Virus record (IMG/VR): IMGVR_UViG_3300004151_000024
Location: 1 to 34,082 of that record
Reading direction: 5' to 3' (one strand)
DNA: 34,082 nucleotides
Source of the DNA: a virus
Both the position numbers and the translations under genes were made by a program. Positions 1 through 34,082 of the stretch are shown here, in pieces. The notes beneath the pieces are model-generated. The model did not search any database and was not told where the DNA came from. It was given only the letters and a program-made list of their open reading frames with translations. The first letter of the stretch is position 1, and the number at the start of each line of letters is the position of its first letter.

Positions 1-3000
1 GCCACACGCTCAAGCGCCGCCGCGTGAACAGCTTCCGCTTCCGCCGCCGCTTTGGCAGCCGCCGCCTGTTCAACCGCCGCCGCCGCCGCATCGCGGGCAG
101 CGTCCGCCGCCGCCCCGATTTCCGGGGACATGTCGCCAAACGCCGCAACCACCTCTGAAACCTGATCCGGCCCCAAGCCATCAAACAGGCCTTTCAGCCG
201 GGCAGACAGCAATTCCGCCGCCTGCCCCGGCTCATCACCAGCGGCAGCCAGTTCCGCCATGTTGGACTGATATTCCGCCACCATGGCGGAAACCTCATTC
301 AGATACCCCTTGCCGCTCGCCTCATTTATCTGACTGGCCAGACTATCGCGCAGGGTCTGGCGTACCCGCTCTTTCGCGGCCGCGAATGCGCCCTCTACAT
401 CCGCACCCATTTCCACGCCGCTCTCGCGGGCAGCAACAAGCGCCCTGTCCAAGTCTGCCAAGGCAGCCGCGAACGGCCCTACCGCCTTTTGCGGCTCCAC
501 CAGCCGGGCAATCGCGCCCCGGAAATCATCGGTCAATTCGACCGTATCCAGCCCCAGCCGCGCCGCCTGTTCACCGGCTGATTTGAAGGTGGCGACCATG
601 CTGGATACCTGCGCCTCCACCTCCCCAACCGCTTCCGCCGGATCAAAAATCTTGCGAAACGTCGCGGCGAAATTCAGATCAGCCAAGGCGCTTTCCATGT
701 CAGAAAAATCGACATTGGCAATTGCGGTGGACATATCCGCCGGTAGCTGATCCTGCACAGCGGTGCGGAATTGGTCCGCAAACCACTTCACAAGATCAGC
801 CGCCCCGGCTTCATCCGCGCTGAAATTGGCGGCAGCCCCATTATATTCCGCCCTCACCCCCTCTCTGTTGCCCACCCGCACCACGGCAGACCCGCCGACA
901 CTCACCCCATCCGCCAAACCATTGAACAGGGCCGCCAGCTGCTTGACGCCATCCGCCAAGCTTCCGGCCGTGTCCCGGTTCTCTTGGCTGAACTTTTTCC
1001 CGGTCATGCCGCCGATGGTGACGCCGCCGGTAGACAGATCAATCGTTGCATTGCCTTCCTTGTCGGAAGGCTTTTTCTTGAACAGGCCCGCGACAGCGGA
1101 GCCCGCAAAGCCGCCCAGGATCGCACCCACGGGACCGCCAGCCATACCCAGGATAGTACCAATCGCAGAACCGCCGATGCCGCCAGCGACAGACCCCAGA
1201 AGCCCGGTAATCTGCCCCGTCTTACCACCACCCAACCCCAGCAAGGACGCGGCACCCATGCCGACCGCGCCCCACGGGGCCGAACCAAGACCCCCGGCAA
1301 TGGCGTCCGACATGCCGGAAGATAGCCCCAAGTCGTTAAACGCGACTTCCCATATTTTGTCCTGAATTCCCTGTCCTAACGACAAGGAAGACCAGTTGAG
1401 CCCCGACAAGCCGCCAAGGCCCCCGATACCCGCCTGACCACCTGGGGCAGTACCGACACCCGCGAGGGACAGGACGCTAGACGCCGAACCACCACCCGCC
1501 GCCGGCAGGGCCGACGCAGGGGCAAACATCGGACGGATAACCGCCTCAGCCGCCAGCCGGGCAAAGGTCTTACGACCCCATGACAGGATATCGTCAAAGA
1601 AACTCTTGATACCGCCGCCGTCGAAGATCTTATCGAAGGCATCCGCGCCGATATCAACCATGTCATCGGCCAATTCCTGCGCCGCCCGGCGGGTTTCATC
1701 CGCCGCTTCTTTCTCCACCTCCGCCCGCGCCTCTACCGCGTCCTTATTGTCCTGTATCGCCTTTTCGCGGTCATACAGCGCACCAGCCTCCCGCCGGATC
1801 GCCGCCGCCTGTTCATCCGTAACCTTAATGCCAGCCTGCCGGGCGGTTTCTTCCGCCCGCAACAAAGCCGTGTGAATGGTGCGCTCCCGCGCCGTCAAAC
1901 CCAGGCTTTCGCGCTCATCCGTCAGGCTGGCAATTTGCCGGTCAATGGCTGCCGTGGCTTCACGCTGCTTTTCGGTCGCCCGTTCGGTTTCAGCCGCCAC
2001 GCGCTTTACCTCTTGCGCCTTTGCCTTTGCCGCCGCCGTCGCAGCCTTCTCCGCCGCCGCCGCTGCTTCCGTGGCCTGCTTTGCCTCGACCACAGCAACA
2101 GCCTTTGCACGCTCCGCCGCTATTTCGTCGTCGGTGGCCTTCATCCCGGCCGCCGTCAGCTTCTTTTTTAGCTCCGCTTCCGCCTTATCAGCGGCTTCCT
2201 GTTGCTCCCGTATGTCCTGCTTCGTCTGCGCAAGCTCAAGCTCCCGCTTCCGCTCCGCATCAAGGCCGGCGAAGATCGCCGCCCGCCGCTTCGCATCCGC
2301 CGCCGCCTTTTCTTCCGCCGCCTTCTTGCGGGCTTCATCATCCTTGACGGCTTGCGCCGCATCGGCCTTTTCGCGGTCTGCAATGTCCTTGCGCAAGGCA
2401 AGGATTTCATTTGCCTTGATCCGCAACCCAGGCACATCCAGCGACGCCGCCAGTTGTTCCGTGACGACCTTACCACCGGTCCAATCCGCGAAAGTCTTCT
2501 CAAGCTCCGCCAAGTCTGCTTTGAGCGCGCCCAAATCCAGCCGGGCACCGCTCAACGCATCCAGGTTTTTCGCGGCAATGCCCAATCTCTCGGCGATAAA
2601 GCCCGTAGCACCTACAGCACCATCGAGCTTCGCAAGGAAATTATCCCACGCATTGCCAAGCGTCGCCCCAGCCGCGCCGATGGATTTTGGCGCTTCCGCC
2701 GCCCGCTTGGCGATTTCATCAGATTGCTTCATCAAGGATGCATAAACATCCTGCGATAAAACCTTGCCTTCCAGCACGGCCGCCCGCAATTCACCGGGCA
2801 ACATCCCCATGCCGTCCGCAATCGCGTTCGCAACCGCCGGTATGTTTTCCAGCAGGCTGTTCAGTTCTTCCGCCCGCAAGACACCGGAATTCATGCCCTG
2901 CGCAAATTGCGTTAAGCCATATTTCATAGCTTCCGTTGACGCGCCCGAAAGGCGACCAAGCTGCATCACCGTGGTTTCCAGCTTGATCAGGTCGCTATTA

Positions 3001-3488
3001 ATGACGCCCAACGATTTGGCCGTCAGCACCAGACGGCCGAACACATCAACCGTTTCCTTCATGGCAACGCCTTGGCGTTGCGCAAGCGCATAAAGCTCTT
3101 GCTGTACCGCCACCGCATCGCCAGAGGCGCGCGTCATATCCTTGATCCTGGCAGAAATCAGCCGCATGTCATCGGCGCGCGTGACGGCATCCTTCAGGAC
3201 CGCCGCCAGCCCACCGATACCGCCGATTGCCACAGCAGCGGCGGGGGCAATCCCCAGCAAGCTGGACCCCACGCCACCAAAAGACCCGCCAGCAGAGGCA
3301 GCAGAAGCGGCACCACGGCGCAGAGCGCCGTCTAACTCTGACGTACCAGCGGCCGCCGAATGCATGGACCTTTCGATACGCTTCGCGGCCGCCTCACCAT
3401 CCGCCCCGATACCACGCAGCGCGGCCGCCGCCTTCTCTGCATCCTTCACGCCCAAGCGGACATATACGGCGCGTTCGGCTGCTGCCAT
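1..3488 (-). CDS. Tail tape measure protein, N-terminal part (gene runs off left end)
   Basis: Sets tail length and is thought to assist DNA ejection in long-tailed phages. The ATG at 3488 follows an AGGAG site and starts just after the tail chaperone stop. The 1162 visible codons show an N-terminal region typical of tape measures (residues about 1-260), a long Ala/Glu/Lys-rich coiled-coil stretch (about 330-600), and a Gly/Ala-rich hydrophobic segment (about 730-803) that could insert in the host membrane. No stop is reached before base 1. The last ~100 residues resemble the piece that enters at 34082, so the gene carries an internal duplication and most likely continues there on a circular map. 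The whole protein would be near 1590 residues. The family call is strong; the circular continuation is inference. Confidence 0.88.
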   Translation of the reverse strand, partial: MAAAERAVYVRLGVKDAEKAAAALRGIGADGEAAAKRIERSMHSAAAGTSELDGALRRGAASAASAGGSFGGVGSSLLGIAPAAAVAIGGIGGLAAVLKDAVTRADDMRLISARIKDMTRASGDAVAVQQELYALAQRQGVAMKETVDVFGRLVLTAKSLGVINSDLIKLETTVMQLGRLSGASTEAMKYGLTQFAQGMNSGVLRAEELNSLLENIPAVANAIADGMGMLPGELRAAVLEGKVLSQDVYASLMKQSDEIAKRAAEAPKSIGAAGATLGNAWDNFLAKLDGAVGATGFIAERLGIAAKNLDALSGARLDLGALKADLAELEKTFADWTGGKVVTEQLAASLDVPGLRIKANEILALRKDIADREKADAAQAVKDDEARKKAAEEKAAADAKRRAAIFAGLDAERKRELELAQTKQDIREQQEAADKAEAELKKKLTAAGMKATDDEIAAERAKAVAVVEAKQATEAAAAAEKAATAAAKAKAQEVKRVAAETERATEKQREATAAIDRQIASLTDERESLGLTARERTIHTALLRAEETARQAGIKVTDEQAAAIRREAGALYDREKAIQDNKDAVEARAEVEKEAADETRRAAQELADDMVDIGADAFDKIFDGGGIKSFFDDILSWGRKTFARLAAEAVIRPMFAPASALPAAGGGSASSVLSLAGVGTAPGGQAGIGGLGGLSGLNWSSLSLGQGIQDKIWEVAFNDLGLSSGMSDAIAGGLGSAPWGAVGMGAASLLGLGGGKTGQITGLLGSVAGGIGGSAIGTILGMAGGPVGAILGGFAGSAVAGLFKKKPSDKEGNATIDLSTGGVTIGGMTGKKFSQENRDTAGSLADGVKQLAALFNGLADGVSVGGSAVVRVGNREGVRAEYNGAAANFSADEAGAADLVKWFADQFRTAVQDQLPADMSTAIANVDFSDMESALADLNFAATFRKIFDPAEAVGEVEAQVSSMVATFKSAGEQAARLGLDTVELTDDFRGAIARLVEPQKAVGPFAAALADLDRALVAARESGVEMGADVEGAFAAAKERVRQTLRDSLASQINEASGKGYLNEVSAMVAEYQSNMAELAAAGDEPGQAAELLSARLKGLFDGLGPDQVSEVVAAFGDMSPEIGAAADAARDAAAAAVEQAAAAKAAAEAEAVHAAALERV

Positions 3489-3499
3489 CTCTCACACTC

Positions 3500-17899: not shown

Positions 17900-18580
17900 T
17901 TGAACCAGAATTCCAGCACCACAAACCCGCCCCCAACCTCTACAGTCGGGGCTGGATTTTGGCTGACTGACGGCTCTTACGTGACGCTCCGAGAATTTGT
18001 GCGCCGCCGCTTGGCAGAAGCCGGCCACGATCAGAATTGGCTTGCCGCACAGATGGGTGTTTCTTCCGGGACGCTATCGACAATCCTAAACGCCGGCAGA
18101 GAAGCCAAAATTAGCCAGCTTGACACCATGGCGTCAGCGCTTGGCGTCAACATCGTCATCCTGCTACGCCTCTGCGGCTACGGCTCCGCCACCACCAAAG
18201 CCAGCACAGCCCCGACAGGGGAAATTATCGGAGATGGCGCAGTACGGTTCTATGACGACGCCGAACGGATCAGCGCCCCAAGGGTGCAAGGCCCCGTTGA
18301 CTTACTGGACGGCTGCGGCTTCGTGGTACGGACAAACTCCACAGGCCCCCGCTACTTGCCGGGGGAAGTGGTATGGACCGAAACGCCACTGACCACCCAC
18401 CCAGACCAGCTATTAGCTCGCCCCTGCATCATCACCCTTTGCGATGGGCAACATGTGTTGCGCACCCCGCTCCTATCAGCAATGCCCAACCGCTACACCC
18501 TACTAGCGCCCCACGGTGCCCTGACCACCGACGTAGAGGTATTAAGCGGGGCCGCTATTGTCCGCATCACCGCAGCGTGA
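17900..18580 (+). CDS. Prophage repressor, HTH plus S24-like C-terminal domain
   Basis: A 226-residue CI/LexA-like repressor. An HTH spans residues about 46-70 (NWLAAQMGVSSGTLSTILNA), followed by a helical extension. The C-terminal half has the S24 peptidase outline: S147 in 'NSTGPRYLPGEVV' matches the catalytic Ser of the usual GDSM.P motif, but the position of the catalytic Lys, in 'DGQHVLRT', holds Leu (L187). No Ala-Gly cleavage site is evident. It may therefore resist RecA-stimulated self-cleavage. The start is taken as TTG 17900, because GAGGG lies at the right distance and no ATG or GTG is available before the HTH. It is divergent from the leftward genes with operators between. Confidence 0.8.
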   Translation: MNQNSSTTNPPPTSTVGAGFWLTDGSYVTLREFVRRRLAEAGHDQNWLAAQMGVSSGTLSTILNAGREAKISQLDTMASALGVNIVILLRLCGYGSATTKASTAPTGEIIGDGAVRFYDDAERISAPRVQGPVDLLDGCGFVVRTNSTGPRYLPGEVVWTETPLTTHPDQLLARPCIITLCDGQHVLRTPLLSAMPNRYTLLAPHGALTTDVEVLSGAAIVRITAA

Positions 18581-18672: not shown

Positions 18673-18677
18673 GCCGT

Positions 18678-18733
18678 CATGGCAGCATGACACCATGGCG
18701 TCATGACAGCATGTTGTCATGACGCCATGACGG
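18678..18733. repeat. CATG 8-bp phased array A (parA operator / candidate centromere)
   Basis: Seven consecutive 8-bp units, each beginning CATG: CATGGCAG, CATGACAC, CATGGCGT, CATGACAG, CATGTTGT, CATGACGC, CATGACGG. Units 3-6 also form a perfect 12-bp inverted repeat with 6-bp centre. The last units cover the -35 element and spacer of the parA promoter, so a bound protein would repress it. Tandem 8-bp sites are typical of ribbon-helix-helix proteins (MetJ boxes are 8 bp, omega sites 7 bp). Confidence 0.85.
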
Positions 18734-18769: not shown

Positions 18770-19396
18770 ATGAAAACACTCGCCCTCATCTGCCAAAAGG
18801 GCGGCACGGGAAAAACAACCCTGGCCATCCATTTATCAGTCGCCGCAACAGTTGATAAACGCTTTACCGTGCTATGGGATGCAGACCCGCAAGGGTCCGC
18901 CCTGCACTGGCGAGCCGCCCGCCAAGCAGACGCCCCGCCGCCGGTACTACCGGGGCCACCCACCACAGCCGATATCGCCACCACCGCGCAAAAGGGTGCG
19001 AAGCTCTGCATCATCGACAGCCCACCCGCCGCCGATTTCAGAGCGTCCGGCATCATCACCGCCGCAGACTTCGCGCTGATCCCGGTACGCCCGAGCCCGC
19101 TTGACGTGACAGCCGCCGCCTCCACCGCCAAAATCGTGGCAGCCACCGGCAAACGTGCCGCTTTTGTGCTGACAGCCTGCCCCACTCATTCAGGGGGCAA
19201 TGCGCTGGCACTCGATGCAGCGGCCACCTTGACCGCCTACGGCCTGCCTGTCTGCCCTGTCCGCATCTACCAGCGGCAAGCATACGTCTCCGCCCTCACT
19301 GGCGGGCTAGCCGTATCCGAGATTGACCAAAACTCACTCGCCACCGCCGAAATCAAAGCACTGTGGAAGTGGATCAAGAAGGAAATCCAGGCATGA
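18770..19396 (+). CDS. parA: ParA partition ATPase (type Ib, ParF-like)
   Basis: A 208-residue deviant-Walker ATPase that segregates low-copy plasmids on the nucleoid. The Walker A motif is 'KGGTGKTTL' (residues 10-18), 'LWDADPQGSALHW' is at 35-47 (motif A'), and 'KLCIIDSPP' near 78-86 is Walker B. It has no N-terminal HTH and its short length matches ParF/type Ib ATPases rather than P1 ParA. The promoter lies inside CATG array A. The stop overlaps the next start (ATGA), forming a two-gene par operon with a small RHH protein, the normal type Ib organisation. Its presence implies that the prophage replicates as a plasmid. Confidence 0.9.
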   Translation: MKTLALICQKGGTGKTTLAIHLSVAATVDKRFTVLWDADPQGSALHWRAARQADAPPPVLPGPPTTADIATTAQKGAKLCIIDSPPAADFRASGIITAADFALIPVRPSPLDVTAAASTAKIVAATGKRAAFVLTACPTHSGGNALALDAAATLTAYGLPVCPVRIYQRQAYVSALTGGLAVSEIDQNSLATAEIKALWKWIKKEIQA

Positions 19397-19632
19397 GCCG
19401 TAAACCCAGCATGGCCGATTTTGCCCGCCCCACCGCCCACACTCCACCCCCCACCCCAACACCCAGCCCGTCAAAAGACCGTAAAAATGTTGCCTTCCGG
19501 GTGACAGAGCCCCAACGACTGGCCCTAATTATGGCCGCCTCACACATGGGCCTGCCCAGCATTCAGGCCCTGCTGGAACGAGGGGTTGCGGCCCTTTTTG
19601 AACAACACGGACTGAAATACCCAACCGAATAA
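19393..19632 (+). CDS. ParG/omega-like ribbon-helix-helix partner of ParA
   Basis: A 79-residue protein coupled to parA by a 4-bp overlap. Residues 1-30 are a Pro/Thr/Ser-rich, probably flexible tail, like the mobile N-terminus of ParG. Residues about 31-38 (KNVAFRVT) would be the DNA-contacting beta strand, followed by two helices (about 39-51 and 55-70, ending 'ALLERGVAALF'), the RHH fold. In type Ib systems this protein binds the centromere and represses its own promoter. The CATG arrays at A and elsewhere in the module are the obvious candidate sites. Family call is from pattern and context. Confidence 0.72.
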   Translation: MSRKPSMADFARPTAHTPPPTPTPSPSKDRKNVAFRVTEPQRLALIMAASHMGLPSIQALLERGVAALFEQHGLKYPTE

Positions 19633-19655: not shown

Positions 19656-20363
19656 TCATCGCGGCGCTACCACAACGGACAGACCGCGCAAACCGGGCCA
19701 GACCAGCGCCGCCGCACGGCGCAACTCTATCCCCGCCGTGCCGTCAAGATAATCACGCACCATACGAGACGGGGCCGATAGGCACACGCGCCCCCCTTCT
19801 GCACTGAGAAGACCGAGAGCCGAGAGCCACCGGGCAACCCAGGCGCGCCCCTTCATCCGCTCCAATGCTGCTCGTAGCGCCCCGAGCGCCCCACACTCCT
19901 TTTCCTGCCCAGCAATCCCTTGCGCGGGCGTGCCCGCGCTATGGTTCTTAGGGTTATTAAAGGGTTTGGACGAACGCGGTTCGTATTGGGCGGAACAATG
20001 TTCGTCATCACCATGCGCTTCGTTCGTATCCGCCGGGCGTTCAGAACGAACGTCGTTCGTATTGACGCCAGCCAGGATATAGCCATTCGACCCGCGCCGC
20101 CCGCGTGCGGACATAACCACAACCGCCCCAGCCGCTGCCAACGCGGCCAGACCCTTCTGCACCCCGCGCACCGTCAAGCCGATGCGCACCGCCAGCGTTG
20201 CCGCCGCCGGGTTGCACTGCCCGGTTTTTTCATTGTGGAAACTGACGAGCCCCCATGCGCAGAGCTTTGCACCCGGCGATAGGTCAGCACGGGCCATTTG
20301 CGCCGAAAGCCATTGATCCTTAGCAAAACGCGGCATCGGCTGGAAAGCGAGAACAGCACCCAT
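19656..20363 (-). CDS. Replication initiation protein (HTH plus DnaA-like C-terminal region)
   Basis: A 235-residue protein convergent with the par operon (stop 24 bp apart). Residues about 25-95 form a winged helix: 'LSPGAKLCAWGLVSFHNE', 'CNPAAATLAVRIGLTVRGVQ', 'GLAALAAAGAVVV', as in phage and plasmid replication proteins. A charged linker follows, then 'WLSALGLLSAEGGRVCLSAP' and 'MVRDYLDGTAGIELRRA', which resembles the region of Rep and DnaA-associated proteins that recruits host replication factors. ATG 20363 has a GAGGGGG site. It is the only replication initiator candidate in the window. A ~430-nt leader with an antisense RNA is predicted. Confidence 0.68.
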   Translation of the reverse strand: MGAVLAFQPMPRFAKDQWLSAQMARADLSPGAKLCAWGLVSFHNEKTGQCNPAAATLAVRIGLTVRGVQKGLAALAAAGAVVVMSARGRRGSNGYILAGVNTNDVRSERPADTNEAHGDDEHCSAQYEPRSSKPFNNPKNHSAGTPAQGIAGQEKECGALGALRAALERMKGRAWVARWLSALGLLSAEGGRVCLSAPSRMVRDYLDGTAGIELRRAAALVWPGLRGLSVVVAPR

Positions 20364-20405
20364 CAAAACCCCCTCTTGGTTAGGTCAGACGGATGGCGCA
20401 GAAAG

Positions 20406-20465
20406 CCTTGCCGCACAGGGGACGGAATGCTATATTCCGGCCTGTAACGGTCGTGTGCGGCAAGG
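20406..20465. repeat. 12-bp perfect inverted repeat around the antisense promoter
   Basis: CCTTGCCGCACA (20406-20417) and TGTGCGGCAAGG (20454-20465), with a second small dyad (CGGAAT/ATTCCG) between. The left arm contains the -35 box of the plus-strand promoter and the right arm lies in its transcript. In the minus-strand rep leader both arms are present and would form a long hairpin. Confidence 0.75.
20408..20436 (+). promoter_or_regulatory. Promoter for a small plus-strand RNA
   Basis: TTGCCG (20408-20413), 17-bp spacer, TATATT (20431-20436). The -10 matches 5/6 and the -35 matches 4/6. Predicted start near 20444. Confidence 0.68.
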
Positions 20466-20526
20466 TCTCTCTACACCTCCCATCGACCGAAGGCCCTCCC
20501 GCTCCAACGGGGGGGCCTTCGTTTTT
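20444..20526 (+). ncRNA. Candidate antisense/small RNA opposite the rep leader
   Basis: About 83 nt from a good sigma-70 promoter to a strong intrinsic terminator. It has no convincing coding capacity. It lies on the strand opposite the rep transcript, about 80-160 bp before the rep start, so it would pair fully with the rep leader if rep starts upstream, as predicted at about 20795. This is the layout of counter-transcribed RNAs that set plasmid copy number. An unpaired CACCTCCC section between the two stems also looks like an anti-Shine-Dalgarno sequence, so action in trans is possible. Confidence 0.58.
20488..20526 (+). terminator. Strong intrinsic terminator of the small RNA
   Basis: A 13-14 bp stem (20488-20501 / 20508-20521) with one C-rich/G-rich core and a short loop, followed by TTTTT (20522-20526) on the plus strand. 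Confidence 0.88.
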
Positions 20527-20747
20527 CTGCACCATCGGTAAATCGAAACAGGCCCCGCGCGCAAGCAGTTTCGCCGCGCGCCGTTTCTGCCCGACAAAAA
20601 CGCAAGCATTTCCGCGCCCCTGCATGATCCTCAACAGGATGTAGCAAGGGGCGCAGCAACCCACAAAACCTATGCGTATCGAGTCGCAAAGCCAAAACGG
20701 CCCGCGACGAGGGACGACTCAGCCCGATTTAGTCGGGCTAAAAATGT
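20527..20747. other. Non-coding rep leader region with dyads
   Basis: About 220 bp without a convincing gene. It holds a GAGTCG/CGACTC dyad (20681-20686 / 20715-20720) and a 7-bp hairpin, AGCCCGA/TCGGGCT (20721-20727 / 20733-20739). On the predicted minus-strand rep transcript these would be leader structures. An origin of replication could lie here, but no iteron set other than the CATG units was seen. Confidence 0.4.
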
Positions 20748-20835
20748 CTTGCTGTCATGGCGTCATGCTGTCATGCTGCCTAAGCATCAAGACGCTATGA
20801 CAGCATAGCGCCTTGACAGCAAGACAGCAAAAAGC
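20748..20835. repeat. CATG 8-bp phased array B1 (partly degenerate)
   Basis: Eleven 8-bp units in phase, the middle ones degenerate: CTTGCTGT, CATGGCGT, CATGCTGT, CATGCTGC, CTAAGCAT, CAAGACGC, TATGACAG, CATAGCGC, CTTGACAG, CAAGACAG, CAAAAAGC. It includes the palindrome GCTATGACAGCATAGC. A minus-strand promoter for rep can be read within it. Confidence 0.72.
20802..20830 (-). promoter_or_regulatory. Possible rep promoter inside array B1
   Basis: On the minus strand: TTGCTG (20830-20825), 17-bp spacer, TATGCT (20807-20802), 4/6 matches at the -10. It would give a leader of about 430 nt for rep. Like the parA promoter it is covered by CATG-type units. Confidence 0.45.
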
Positions 20836-20909
20836 AAGAGCGCAACGATGCTGCAACACCCGCAACAAAGCCACGCGCTGGCGACCTATTGGCACCTTTG
20901 CCGCGCCGC

Positions 20910-20933
20910 CATGACAGCATGACGGCATGACAG
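20910..20933. repeat. CATG 8-bp phased array B2
   Basis: Three exact units (CATGACAG, CATGACGG, CATGACAG) immediately before the methyltransferase ribosome site. The start codon region, CATGACCA at 20948, has the same beginning. Confidence 0.75.
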
Positions 20934-20948
20934 CAGAAAGACGACAGC

Positions 20949-22049
20949 ATGACCAAAAAGACGATTGACCTATTTTGCGGGGCTGGCGGCATGTCCGCCG
21001 GCTTTGAAGCCGCCGGTTTCCGCTCCGCCGCAGCGGTGGACAATTTTGACGCTGCCACCAAGACATACGCGCACGCCCACCCACACAGCGCCGTCATCAA
21101 CGCCAGCATAGAGAGCATTGATGCCGAAACGCTGGCCGCAGCGGCTGGCGTAGCACGCGGGGAACTGGCGGTCCTGACCGGCGGACCACCGTGTCAAGCC
21201 TATTCCGTCTATAACCACCAGCGGGGCACGCACGACGCCCGCGCCGGCCTGTTCCGCGAATATCTGCGGATCGTGGACGGGCTCCGCCCCGAATGGATCG
21301 TGATGGAAAACGTCACAGGTATCCATTCCATCAACGGCGGGAGCGTGGTGCGCGACATTTACAGCGCCCTCGCAGAGCTTGGCTATGCCGTCGAACACCA
21401 GACCCTAAAGGCCGAAGATTTTGGCGTCGCGCAAGAGCGTCGCCGCGTCGTGTTCGTCGGCACCCGCACCGGCAGCGCCATCCGCTTCCCCAGCCCCACG
21501 CACGGGACAGGCAGCGGGTTGCAGCCTTATACGACCGTGCGGGATGCGATAAGCGACCTACCCGCCATCCGCAACGGCGGCACCGGGACAGAATACGCAG
21601 CCCCGCCCCGTAGCGCCTTCCAGCGCTACGCCCGCGCCGCCGCGCCGGCACTGACCAGCCATAAGGCCCCCCGGCTGGGCGAGATAAACCTACGCCGGAT
21701 GCAGCACATCCCCCAAGGGGGCAGCTGGCGGGATATCCCCCACGACCTGCTGCCCGAAGGCATGCAGCGCGCCAAAAGGTCAGACCACACCAAGCGATAC
21801 GGACGGCTCCACCCGGAAGGGCTATCCAGCACGATCCTAACCAAATGCGACCCGCATTGGAGCGCCTGCATACACCCATGGGAAGACCGGTCCTTGACCG
21901 TGCGCGAAGCCGCCCGGCTACAGTCGTTCCCGGATCACTTCACATTCCACGGCTCTACCACCGAGCAATACACCCAAGTTGGCAACGCCGTTCCGCCGCT
22001 TTTGGCCCGCGCCGTGGCGTCATGCATTCATGACGGCATGACGGCATGA
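20949..22049 (+). CDS. C5-cytosine DNA methyltransferase (orphan)
   Basis: A 366-residue enzyme that transfers a methyl group to C5 of cytosine. Motif I 'IDLFCGAGGMSAGF' is at residues 6-19, motif IV with catalytic Cys 'GGPPCQAYS' has C82, motif VI 'MENVTG' is at 119-124, motif VIII 'QERRRVVFVG' at 162-171, and motifs IX-X 'REAARLQSFPDHF' and 'YTQVGNAVPPLLARAVA' close the protein. No restriction endonuclease is adjacent, so it probably protects phage DNA from host restriction or has a regulatory role. Start ATG is preceded by AGAAAGACGA and array B2. The C-terminus runs into array C. Confidence 0.94.
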   Translation: MTKKTIDLFCGAGGMSAGFEAAGFRSAAAVDNFDAATKTYAHAHPHSAVINASIESIDAETLAAAAGVARGELAVLTGGPPCQAYSVYNHQRGTHDARAGLFREYLRIVDGLRPEWIVMENVTGIHSINGGSVVRDIYSALAELGYAVEHQTLKAEDFGVAQERRRVVFVGTRTGSAIRFPSPTHGTGSGLQPYTTVRDAISDLPAIRNGGTGTEYAAPPRSAFQRYARAAAPALTSHKAPRLGEINLRRMQHIPQGGSWRDIPHDLLPEGMQRAKRSDHTKRYGRLHPEGLSSTILTKCDPHWSACIHPWEDRSLTVREAARLQSFPDHFTFHGSTTEQYTQVGNAVPPLLARAVASCIHDGMTA

Positions 22050-22084
22050 CGGCATGACGGCATGACGGCATGACGGCATGACGC
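22021..22084. repeat. CATG 8-bp tandem array C
   Basis: Eight perfectly phased units: CATGCATT, then six identical CATGACGG, then CATGACGC. The first part codes for the last residues of the methyltransferase; the rest fills the gap before the next gene. It is the most regular array in the window. Confidence 0.92.
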
Positions 22085-22107
22085 TACGACAGCAAAGAGG
22101 CAACAGC

Positions 22108-22521
22108 ATGACCAGCATCACCGACATAGCCAAGGCGATACACGCCGGCACCGTCCGCCGTTCCAGCCCGGTCGGCTGGCACCCGATCCCGGAATGGGAT
22201 GCACTGCCCCCGGCTTCACAGGCAGAATTCCACCACATGGCCAGCGACGCCGCCCGCGCCCTGGCACTCTTGCCGGCAACAGAGCGATACGACACCAGCC
22301 GACAGGCAGACCGGCCGCCGCTGGTACTCAGCGCCAATGCCTATGAGGCAAGCCGCGACCTTAACGCCCACATGGATCTTCTGACCCTGCGCCACCGCCT
22401 GACAGGCGGGCAGCAGCTAGAGGCGCTTTTACTCACTCACGCCCTGTTTATGCGCGTTAACGCAAAGCCGGGCATGGCGGAAATCGCCGCCGGCCGCGAA
22501 GCGACCGCCAACAGACACTGA
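22108..22521 (+). CDS. Hypothetical phage protein downstream of the methyltransferase
   Basis: A 137-residue protein starting at ATG 22108 after AAGAGG. The N-terminal part 'IAKAIHAG...W' and 'FHHMASDAARALALL' follows a motif seen in short proteins of phage early regions (AxxIH, then FRxxAxAAIxAL). The C-terminal half is helical. No catalytic residues are apparent. Array C directly upstream suggests control by the CATG-binding factor. Confidence 0.65.
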   Translation: MTSITDIAKAIHAGTVRRSSPVGWHPIPEWDALPPASQAEFHHMASDAARALALLPATERYDTSRQADRPPLVLSANAYEASRDLNAHMDLLTLRHRLTGGQQLEALLLTHALFMRVNAKPGMAEIAAGREATANRH

Positions 22522-32828: not shown

Positions 32829-34082
32829 TTACCCCCGCTTGCGTGCCAACATTTCCAGGTCGCGGCGCAACCCCCTGATATCGGCAGCCATCGCCACCAG
32901 CGCCGCCGCCGTGGCAGCAGCCCCGCCACCCGCCGCCGCCTCCACCCGGCCAGACATTGAGTTAATGGCCGCCAGAAGGTCAGCATCCCCCCGGCCAAGG
33001 CCCATCATGGCCGCCGTTACATCGGGGTTAGCGACATAGGCGGGCCCGACCGAAAAGACCGTTTCCGGCCGCCCCGTCTCCCCCGCCATGAAGGCTTGAC
33101 CCGGCGGCACCCACCCACCGCGCGCCATGCGCCGGGCAGTCACAGGCGTGAAGTAGCGGCGGAGATTTTCCGCCGCCACTTCATCAACCGTGATGGTAGA
33201 GCCGTCCTGCAGTTGATAGCGACCGGGGGAACCCCACTCACCCGCCGCCGGGACCGAAGCGGCAACGGCGGGAACCTCAATATCCAGCCCCACAGCCGCC
33301 GCCAAAGCGTCCTGATAGGCCGCCATAGCATCGGCTACGGACAGCACTGCGGTTTTGACTTCCCCCAGCGCCGTCAACTGACTTTCGAGAACCGAAAGCT
33401 GTTGCTCCCCGATATCCACCTGATCCGCCGCGACCTTTTCCGCCGCCGCCGCATCCGCCATCACGGCATCAAAAATGGATGCGTATTCATCTTCCCGCGT
33501 GCCGAAGGCACGCAGGGCAGACAGATACGCCCGCGCCGCATCAGGCAATGCCGCCGCCGCGTCAGGGTCCGTTTGTGCCTTATCCCGCAACGCCTCATAG
33601 GCTTTGCGGGCTTCGTCCAACTGCCCCCCTTGCGACAAGGGCGAAAGGGTAGCGTCCTGCAACAGCGACGCCCGGAAATCCGCCAGTGACTTGCCTGCCG
33701 ATTTCCAGGCAGAGACGACAGAAGACAGCGCGTCGCGCTCTGCCTCCACCGCCTCCACCGCCCGCGACCGCGCCGCCGTCAACGCATCTTCCGCCGCCGC
33801 CCTTTCATCCGCCGCCGCTTTGGCCGCCTCACTTGCCGCCAGCACATCCGCCGCCGTCGCCGCCAGCGCCGGGGACAAACCCCCGATCAAAGCCAGCGCA
33901 TCCGCTGCCTGATCAGGATCAAGCCCATCAAACAGGGTCCGCAGACTACCGGACAGAATATCCATCGCCTGCCCGGCCGGCTGCCCAGCCTCAACCAAGG
34001 CCGCAACATCCGCCTCATAATTGGACACCAAAGACCGGATGTTGTTGCGGTATCCCTTGCCGCCGGCTTCATCCGCCCGGCC
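32829..34082 (-). CDS. Tail tape measure protein, C-terminal part (enters at right end)
   Basis: 417 codons, open to the right end of the window, so no start is needed here; a TTG at 34031 is only the first internal start-like codon. The opening residues (DEAGGKGYRNN..., FDGLDPDQAADALALIGG) match the last part of the frame at 1-330 (EASGKGYLNE..., FDGLGPDQVSEVVAAFGD). A coiled-coil Ala/Glu-rich region follows. The C-terminus (RRMARGGWVPPGQAFMAGET, then ETVFSVGPAYVANPDVTA) is the usual phage tape measure ending. The frame is off by one base relative to a direct join with base 1. Confidence 0.85.
   Translation of the reverse strand, partial: GRADEAGGKGYRNNIRSLVSNYEADVAALVEAGQPAGQAMDILSGSLRTLFDGLDPDQAADALALIGGLSPALAATAADVLAASEAAKAAADERAAAEDALTAARSRAVEAVEAERDALSSVVSAWKSAGKSLADFRASLLQDATLSPLSQGGQLDEARKAYEALRDKAQTDPDAAAALPDAARAYLSALRAFGTREDEYASIFDAVMADAAAAEKVAADQVDIGEQQLSVLESQLTALGEVKTAVLSVADAMAAYQDALAAAVGLDIEVPAVAASVPAAGEWGSPGRYQLQDGSTITVDEVAAENLRRYFTPVTARRMARGGWVPPGQAFMAGETGRPETVFSVGPAYVANPDVTAAMMGLGRGDADLLAAINSMSGRVEAAAGGGAAATAAALVAMAADIRGLRRDLEMLARKRG

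Follow-up and report, generated by a model that had tools for sequence, protein, structure and literature searches.

Low and steady copy number in phage-plasmids with O-like initiators rests on a mechanism that, to our knowledge, has been little explored. The closest working model for the locus described here is the counter-transcribed RNA (ctRNA) of the repABC plasmids of alphaproteobacteria, known as RepE, IncA or inc-alpha, as in Agrobacterium pTiR10 and Rhizobium p42d. When this RNA is absent, the leader folds into a large stem-loop and the Shine-Dalgarno (SD) sequence and start codon are open, whereas in its presence the downstream part of the leader refolds (PMC6090056, PMC3155836). CopA/CopT of plasmid R1 (IncFII) and RNAI of the IncB/IncI plasmids are antisense to the rep mRNA leader as well and lower the synthesis of Rep (PMC5415839). 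In pSM19035 the RHH protein Omega binds arrays of short repeats, which overlap the promoters for partition and copy control (PMC9499535). Among phages, OOP RNA of lambda acts on cII and by itself contributes little to replication (PMC3985674), and extrachromosomal mycobacteriophage prophages of the RedRock type possess 8-bp par repeats and employ a non-coding RNA in replication (PMC7157519).

In the present study the virus record IMGVR_UViG_3300004151_000024 was analyzed over its full length of 34,082 bases, hereafter the window. Its minus strand carries the structural genes, namely terminase, portal, capsid and tape measure. The tape-measure gene is split across the record ends (regions 1-3491 and 32829-34082, minus strand), with open frames from 3491 to 2 and from 34082 to 32829 and a frame at the junction that is off by one or two bases; this frame continues past either end of the record, so that we appear to be dealing with a circular genome that was opened within this gene. 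The genes around the locus are:

17900-18580, plus strand: cI-like repressor
18770-19396, plus strand: ParA
19393-19632, plus strand: small RHH-like protein
19656-20363, minus strand: rep, 235 aa from ATG (listed start TTG 20366), with N-terminal HTH_36 and a C-terminal part like DnaA domain I
20949-22049, plus strand: C5 methyltransferase

Here rep, on the minus strand, stands alone and is convergent with parA, which lies together with the RHH-like gene on the other strand. No integrase was found among the proteins scanned, nor any unassigned ORF of integrase size, and with phage structural genes, rep and par, and without a detected integrase, the record seems by its gene content to follow the pattern of a phage-plasmid.

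The N-terminus of Rep matches Pfam HTH_36 (E 6e-6), the sole Pfam domain found, the protein matches PHROG replication initiation families including O-like ones (phrog_270, E 6.5e-10; phrog_391, E 2e-7), and its residues 163-233 are similar to the N-termini of DnaA-like ORFs. Based on these three similarities the rep product is probably a replication initiator, O-like and unrelated to RepC. Its structure prediction is of low confidence (mean pLDDT 39). Relatives were sought by pattern scans of viral and genome contigs and by tblastn in plasmids and phages, as well as in 385 alphaproteobacterial genomes, and all these searches returned similarity to the DnaA domain only.

Opposite the leader of rep, a preliminary description of this DNA had placed a plus-strand promoter (TTGCCG-N17-TATATT), an RNA of ~83 nt and a strong terminator, all of which were confirmed at the level of sequence:

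20408-20436, plus strand: antisense promoter, -35 TTGCCG (20408-20413), 17-bp spacer, TG-extended -10 TATATT (20431-20436)
20444-20526, plus strand: predicted antisense RNA, ~83 nt, with hairpin 1 (about 20449-20488, loop UCUCUCUA) followed by the terminator hairpin
20488-20526, plus strand: intrinsic terminator, 14-pair stem with 6-nt loop (20488-20521), then TTTTT

The promoter, TTGCCG-N17-TGCTATATT, in which TG sits one base ahead of the -10 element, is the sole 9/12 match within 2.5 kb, where 0.6 would be expected, and once the extended -10 is counted in its full score, only 0.03 such sites would be expected per 590 bp. The terminator has 11 G-C pairs among its 14, and the 34-kb window contains no other strong plus-strand terminator. 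A promoter and a terminator within 200 nt of each other occurred at the antisense locus alone when both strands of the window were considered, and in none of 40 whole-window shuffles. The predicted 83-nt RNA folds into two hairpins with a minimum free energy (MFE) of -43.2 kcal/mol (z -5.7). With its own promoter and terminator opposite the rep leader, the element thus has the build of a counter-transcribed RNA. No ctRNA or other model of Rfam matched at gathering score; below threshold only miRNA-type matches appeared, which are regarded as chance and put down to the hairpins. Homologues of the leader were found neither as DNA nor as RNA, and a single match (L003) was discarded as a chance hit, as it falls inside a coding region.

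An ORF of 81 aa extends over the RNA, yet it matched no family and its codon statistics did not rise above background, so that the sequence appears to hold no convincing gene covering the antisense RNA. This bears on the alternative that the element resembles OOP, the promoter acting by transcriptional interference or the RNA on another transcript, and not on rep translation. In placement and size class the element is like OOP, its neighbour being an initiator with matches to O-like PHROGs, and in lambda the activity of pO affects replication though OOP RNA itself hardly does (PMC3985674). However, OOP in lambda is directed against the 3' end of an upstream regulator gene, cII, and at the present locus no cII-like gene was found and the 81-aa ORF over the RNA has no family match; moreover, the leader stem and the switch at the ribosome-binding site (RBS) presented below would be unexpected for an OOP-type element. 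An action of this kind is considered unlikely.

The preliminary description had further reported a perfect 12-bp inverted repeat that would form a long hairpin in the leader. The repeat is indeed perfect, and its extent had been understated, since it is the core of a stem of ~34 pairs reaching 20488 and 20383:

20406-20465, no strand: perfect 12-bp inverted repeat, CCTTGCCGCACA (20406-20417) / TGTGCGGCAAGG (20454-20465), core of the long stem
20452-20488, minus strand: 5' arm of the rep-leader stem, with which the antisense RNA could pair; it contains GAUGGGAGGUG, which is similar to the rep start site
20383-20419, minus strand: 3' arm of the rep-leader stem, holding CAUCCGUC (20395-20388) and GACCU (20386-20382)

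On the minus strand this stem, 20488-20452 with 20419-20383, reaches -64.9 kcal/mol (z -8.7) vs -51.3 kcal/mol (z -4.9) for the plus-strand fold of the same stretch, a difference that does not stem from base composition, because the shuffle means are equal for both strands. It is explained by the five transitions between the arms, which without exception become G.U pairs in an RNA of the minus strand (5/5) and A.C mismatches in one of the plus strand (0/5 compatible). This bias concerns five positions only and is modest (one-sided p about 0.03); it suggests selection on a minus-strand RNA spanning 20488-20383 and hence argues indirectly for a rep mRNA begun upstream of the antisense gene, that is, upstream of 20488. 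The inverted repeat could instead be a DNA element, either a protein-binding dyad or an origin structure, with the folding of the RNA as a by-product. It adjoins the initiator gene, and its left arm overlaps the -35 hexamer of the antisense promoter. Against this stand the differences between the arms, which are of the RNA (G.U) kind and on one strand only, and the RBS switch, which a dyad would not predict; we therefore give this explanation hardly any credence.

The start site of rep and a short reading frame ahead of it are located as follows:

20361-20376, minus strand: rep ribosome-binding site, SD AGAGGGGG (20376-20369) and ATG (20363-20361), read from the sequence
20380-20463, minus strand: possible leader ORF of 27 codons, TTG 20463 to TAA 20380, with GGGAGG upstream (about 20481-20476), speculative

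The leader was folded from 20526 to 20330, and the cost of opening the SD-AUG stretch (20378-20358) was calculated for the free leader and for a blocked state, in which the stretch that the small RNA could pair with, 20526-20444, was made unavailable. Opening the rep SD and AUG is predicted to cost 7.6 kcal/mol in the free leader and 17.7 kcal/mol in the blocked one, a difference of +10.1. The blocked leader is predicted to pair GAUGGGUG, around the start codon (20364-20357), with CAUCCGUC (20395-20388), and the SD (20373-20367) with GACCU..CC (GACCU 20386-20382), while in the free state the 5' arm holds the same bases of the 3' arm that otherwise mask SD and AUG. Shuffling the 3' arm region 200 times (mean -0.4, sd 2.2) or the RBS part 200 times (mean 1.3, sd 3.5) never produced a difference this large, nor did any of 350 minus-strand places with the same geometry (maximum 8.5). 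When the 5' part was shuffled, all 200 resulting leaders were harder to open than the actual free leader. Calculated with one folding program, the size of the switch varies between 3 and 10.6 kcal/mol with the start and end chosen for the leader; some longer leaders retain only 3-7 kcal/mol, so that it is important where the mRNA begins. With alternative energy parameters, a single result departed from these values, at 6.1 to 13.8 kcal/mol. As modelled, the rep leader would be a switch whose sign fits a repressor, as copy control requires. This predicted switch is first described here; the preliminary description had noted the antisense anatomy and not the switch.

A control as in IncFII or IncB plasmids would take another route, in that translation of a leader ORF opens the rep start and the antisense RNA blocks this ORF. 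The 27-codon frame ends 16 nt ahead of the rep ATG, its start region is covered by the antisense RNA, and GGGAGGTG lies upstream, with GGGAGG inside the covered stretch. But its start codon is poor, the spacing is ~12 nt and the codon usage is uninformative; furthermore, the free leader leaves the rep start site fairly accessible already, so that a coupling ribosome is not required, and we regard such coupling as improbable. Transcription attenuation of the pT181/pIP501 type was rejected, since the rep leader is without an intrinsic terminator: between the antisense gene and rep no minus-strand terminator was found, only UUUU after GGGGG.

One element of the preliminary description was not confirmed, namely a possible rep promoter at 20830-20802. 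It matches at 7 of 12 positions, and five sites on the minus strand are at least as good, where 4.25 +/- 2.2 are expected; in a search of the minus strand of the region, no rep promoter stood out above chance. The rep promoter is expected in or below the second of the following CATG arrays:

18676-18731: CATG array of 8-bp units before parA
20745-20827, no strand: inverted CATG repeat array between the rep leader and the methyltransferase gene, possible operator or centromere of the RHH-like protein
20908-20954: CATG array of 8-bp units before the methyltransferase gene
22019-22113: CATG array of 8-bp units before the gene following the methyltransferase gene

By analogy, these arrays are probably the binding sites of the RHH-like protein (19393-19632) and would serve partition and regulation. 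A hairpin, AGCCCGA-TTTAG-TCGGGCT, is situated at 20715-20743 between the array and the antisense gene and has an A/T run on one side only. An unrelated plasmid-like contig from a Betaproteobacteria MAG encodes a ParA with 42% identity, an RHH-like protein and a RepA_C plasmid initiator, and displays similar GTCATGRC-type repeats before parA and before repA (1440-1500 and 2700-2752). From these similar arrays and the analogy with Omega of pSM19035, a second, transcriptional layer of control via the CATG arrays is plausible.

The position of the arrays also touches on the alternative that the plus-strand promoter serves the methyltransferase operon (20949 onwards), with the terminator as an attenuator and the overlap with rep as incidental. 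The methyltransferase gene is the next one on the plus strand, and no further plus-strand terminator lies in between. However, a non-coding stretch of 420 bp, CATG arrays included, separates the terminator from that gene, no alternative antiterminator was seen, and the minus-strand stem and the RBS switch would be left unexplained, which makes an attenuated methyltransferase leader very improbable.

We consider it rather likely that the product of 20444-20526 on the plus strand is a short counter-transcribed RNA, ended by a terminator, and that this RNA represses rep through a switch in the rep leader. The antisense reading of the preliminary description is thus upheld in its anatomy and strengthened by the stem on the rep-sense strand and the predicted masking of the start site, while the rep promoter proposed with it is no better than a chance match. 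Under the repressor reading, the rep mRNA would begin, on the minus strand, at a point upstream of 20488, and its leader would fold into the long stem 20488-20452 with 20419-20383, which would keep SD and AUG of rep fairly accessible. The antisense RNA would pair with the 5' arm, before or instead of the 3' arm, whereupon the freed 3' arm would refold onto SD and AUG and rep translation would be turned off. Because it would be made from every copy, the RNA would register how many copies there are and feed back negatively on their number in a phage maintained as a plasmid. That both RNAs are transcribed, that they pair in the cell and that this affects translation and copy number is what we infer. 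If true, a phage initiator family has taken over, or invented anew, the ctRNA type of control known from plasmids.

A wider reading combines a phage-plasmid whose initiator is O-like with DnaA domain I, a direct RNA switch for copy number in which the antisense RNA sets free the arm that masks the start codon, a 5' arm that imitates the start site and serves as a decoy for it, and centromere-like arrays at the rep promoter bound by the RHH-like protein; we put this combination forward tentatively and would not yet bet on it as a whole. If true, an initiator unrelated to RepC would have acquired control of the repABC type independently, and one other locus might be a second case. In a comparison of 30 loci with phrog_270 reps from alphaproteobacterial genomes, a convincing antisense promoter and terminator opposite the rep leader was seen in only one (L040), a count that weighs against the repressor reading. 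On this AT-rich contig, at about 1380-1503, a TTGACA-N17 promoter and an 11-pair terminator lie opposite the leader of a phrog_270 HTH initiator. The predicted change at its RBS is +7 kcal/mol, with a minimum-energy fold of the start site that is identical in both states. L040 may thus hold a second antisense RNA, about 59 nt long, and, as a product of screening, is regarded as a lead only. A further antisense candidate (L046) was dismissed, its terminator belonging to the upstream gene.

Set against the known systems, the locus shares with lambda OOP a short, terminated phage RNA, here predicted, which is transcribed away from an O-like initiator gene; unlike OOP, it is complementary to the leader of the initiator itself. 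Prophages of the RedRock type are without rep and use their RNA for initiation, whereas the present locus has a rep gene, which its RNA would repress. In pIP501, RNAIII and CopR make up two layers, an antisense RNA and a DNA-binding protein. Two such layers are candidates here too, like RNAIII/CopR and like Omega of pSM19035. Those systems, however, are Gram-positive, RNAIII acts by transcription attenuation, and the repeat unit and the proteins differ. CopA/CopT and RNAI act through a leader ORF or a pseudoknot, whereas the present locus offers a doubtful leader ORF and a direct, predicted RBS switch. An assignment to the repABC ctRNA family is contradicted by the initiator, which is HTH_36 and DnaA domain I-like and not RepC, by the gene order, with rep alone and convergent with parA and not between repB and repC, and by the RNA, which at 83 nt vs about 50 nt is longer and has no Rfam match; nor was a canonical intrinsic terminator found in the refolded rep leader. 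Common to the locus and the repABC ctRNA are an antisense RNA that ends at a terminator and lies opposite the initiator gene's leader, and the same, here predicted, switch logic; it is probable that the locus adds a counter-transcribed RNA of a known type to a phage with an unrelated initiator.
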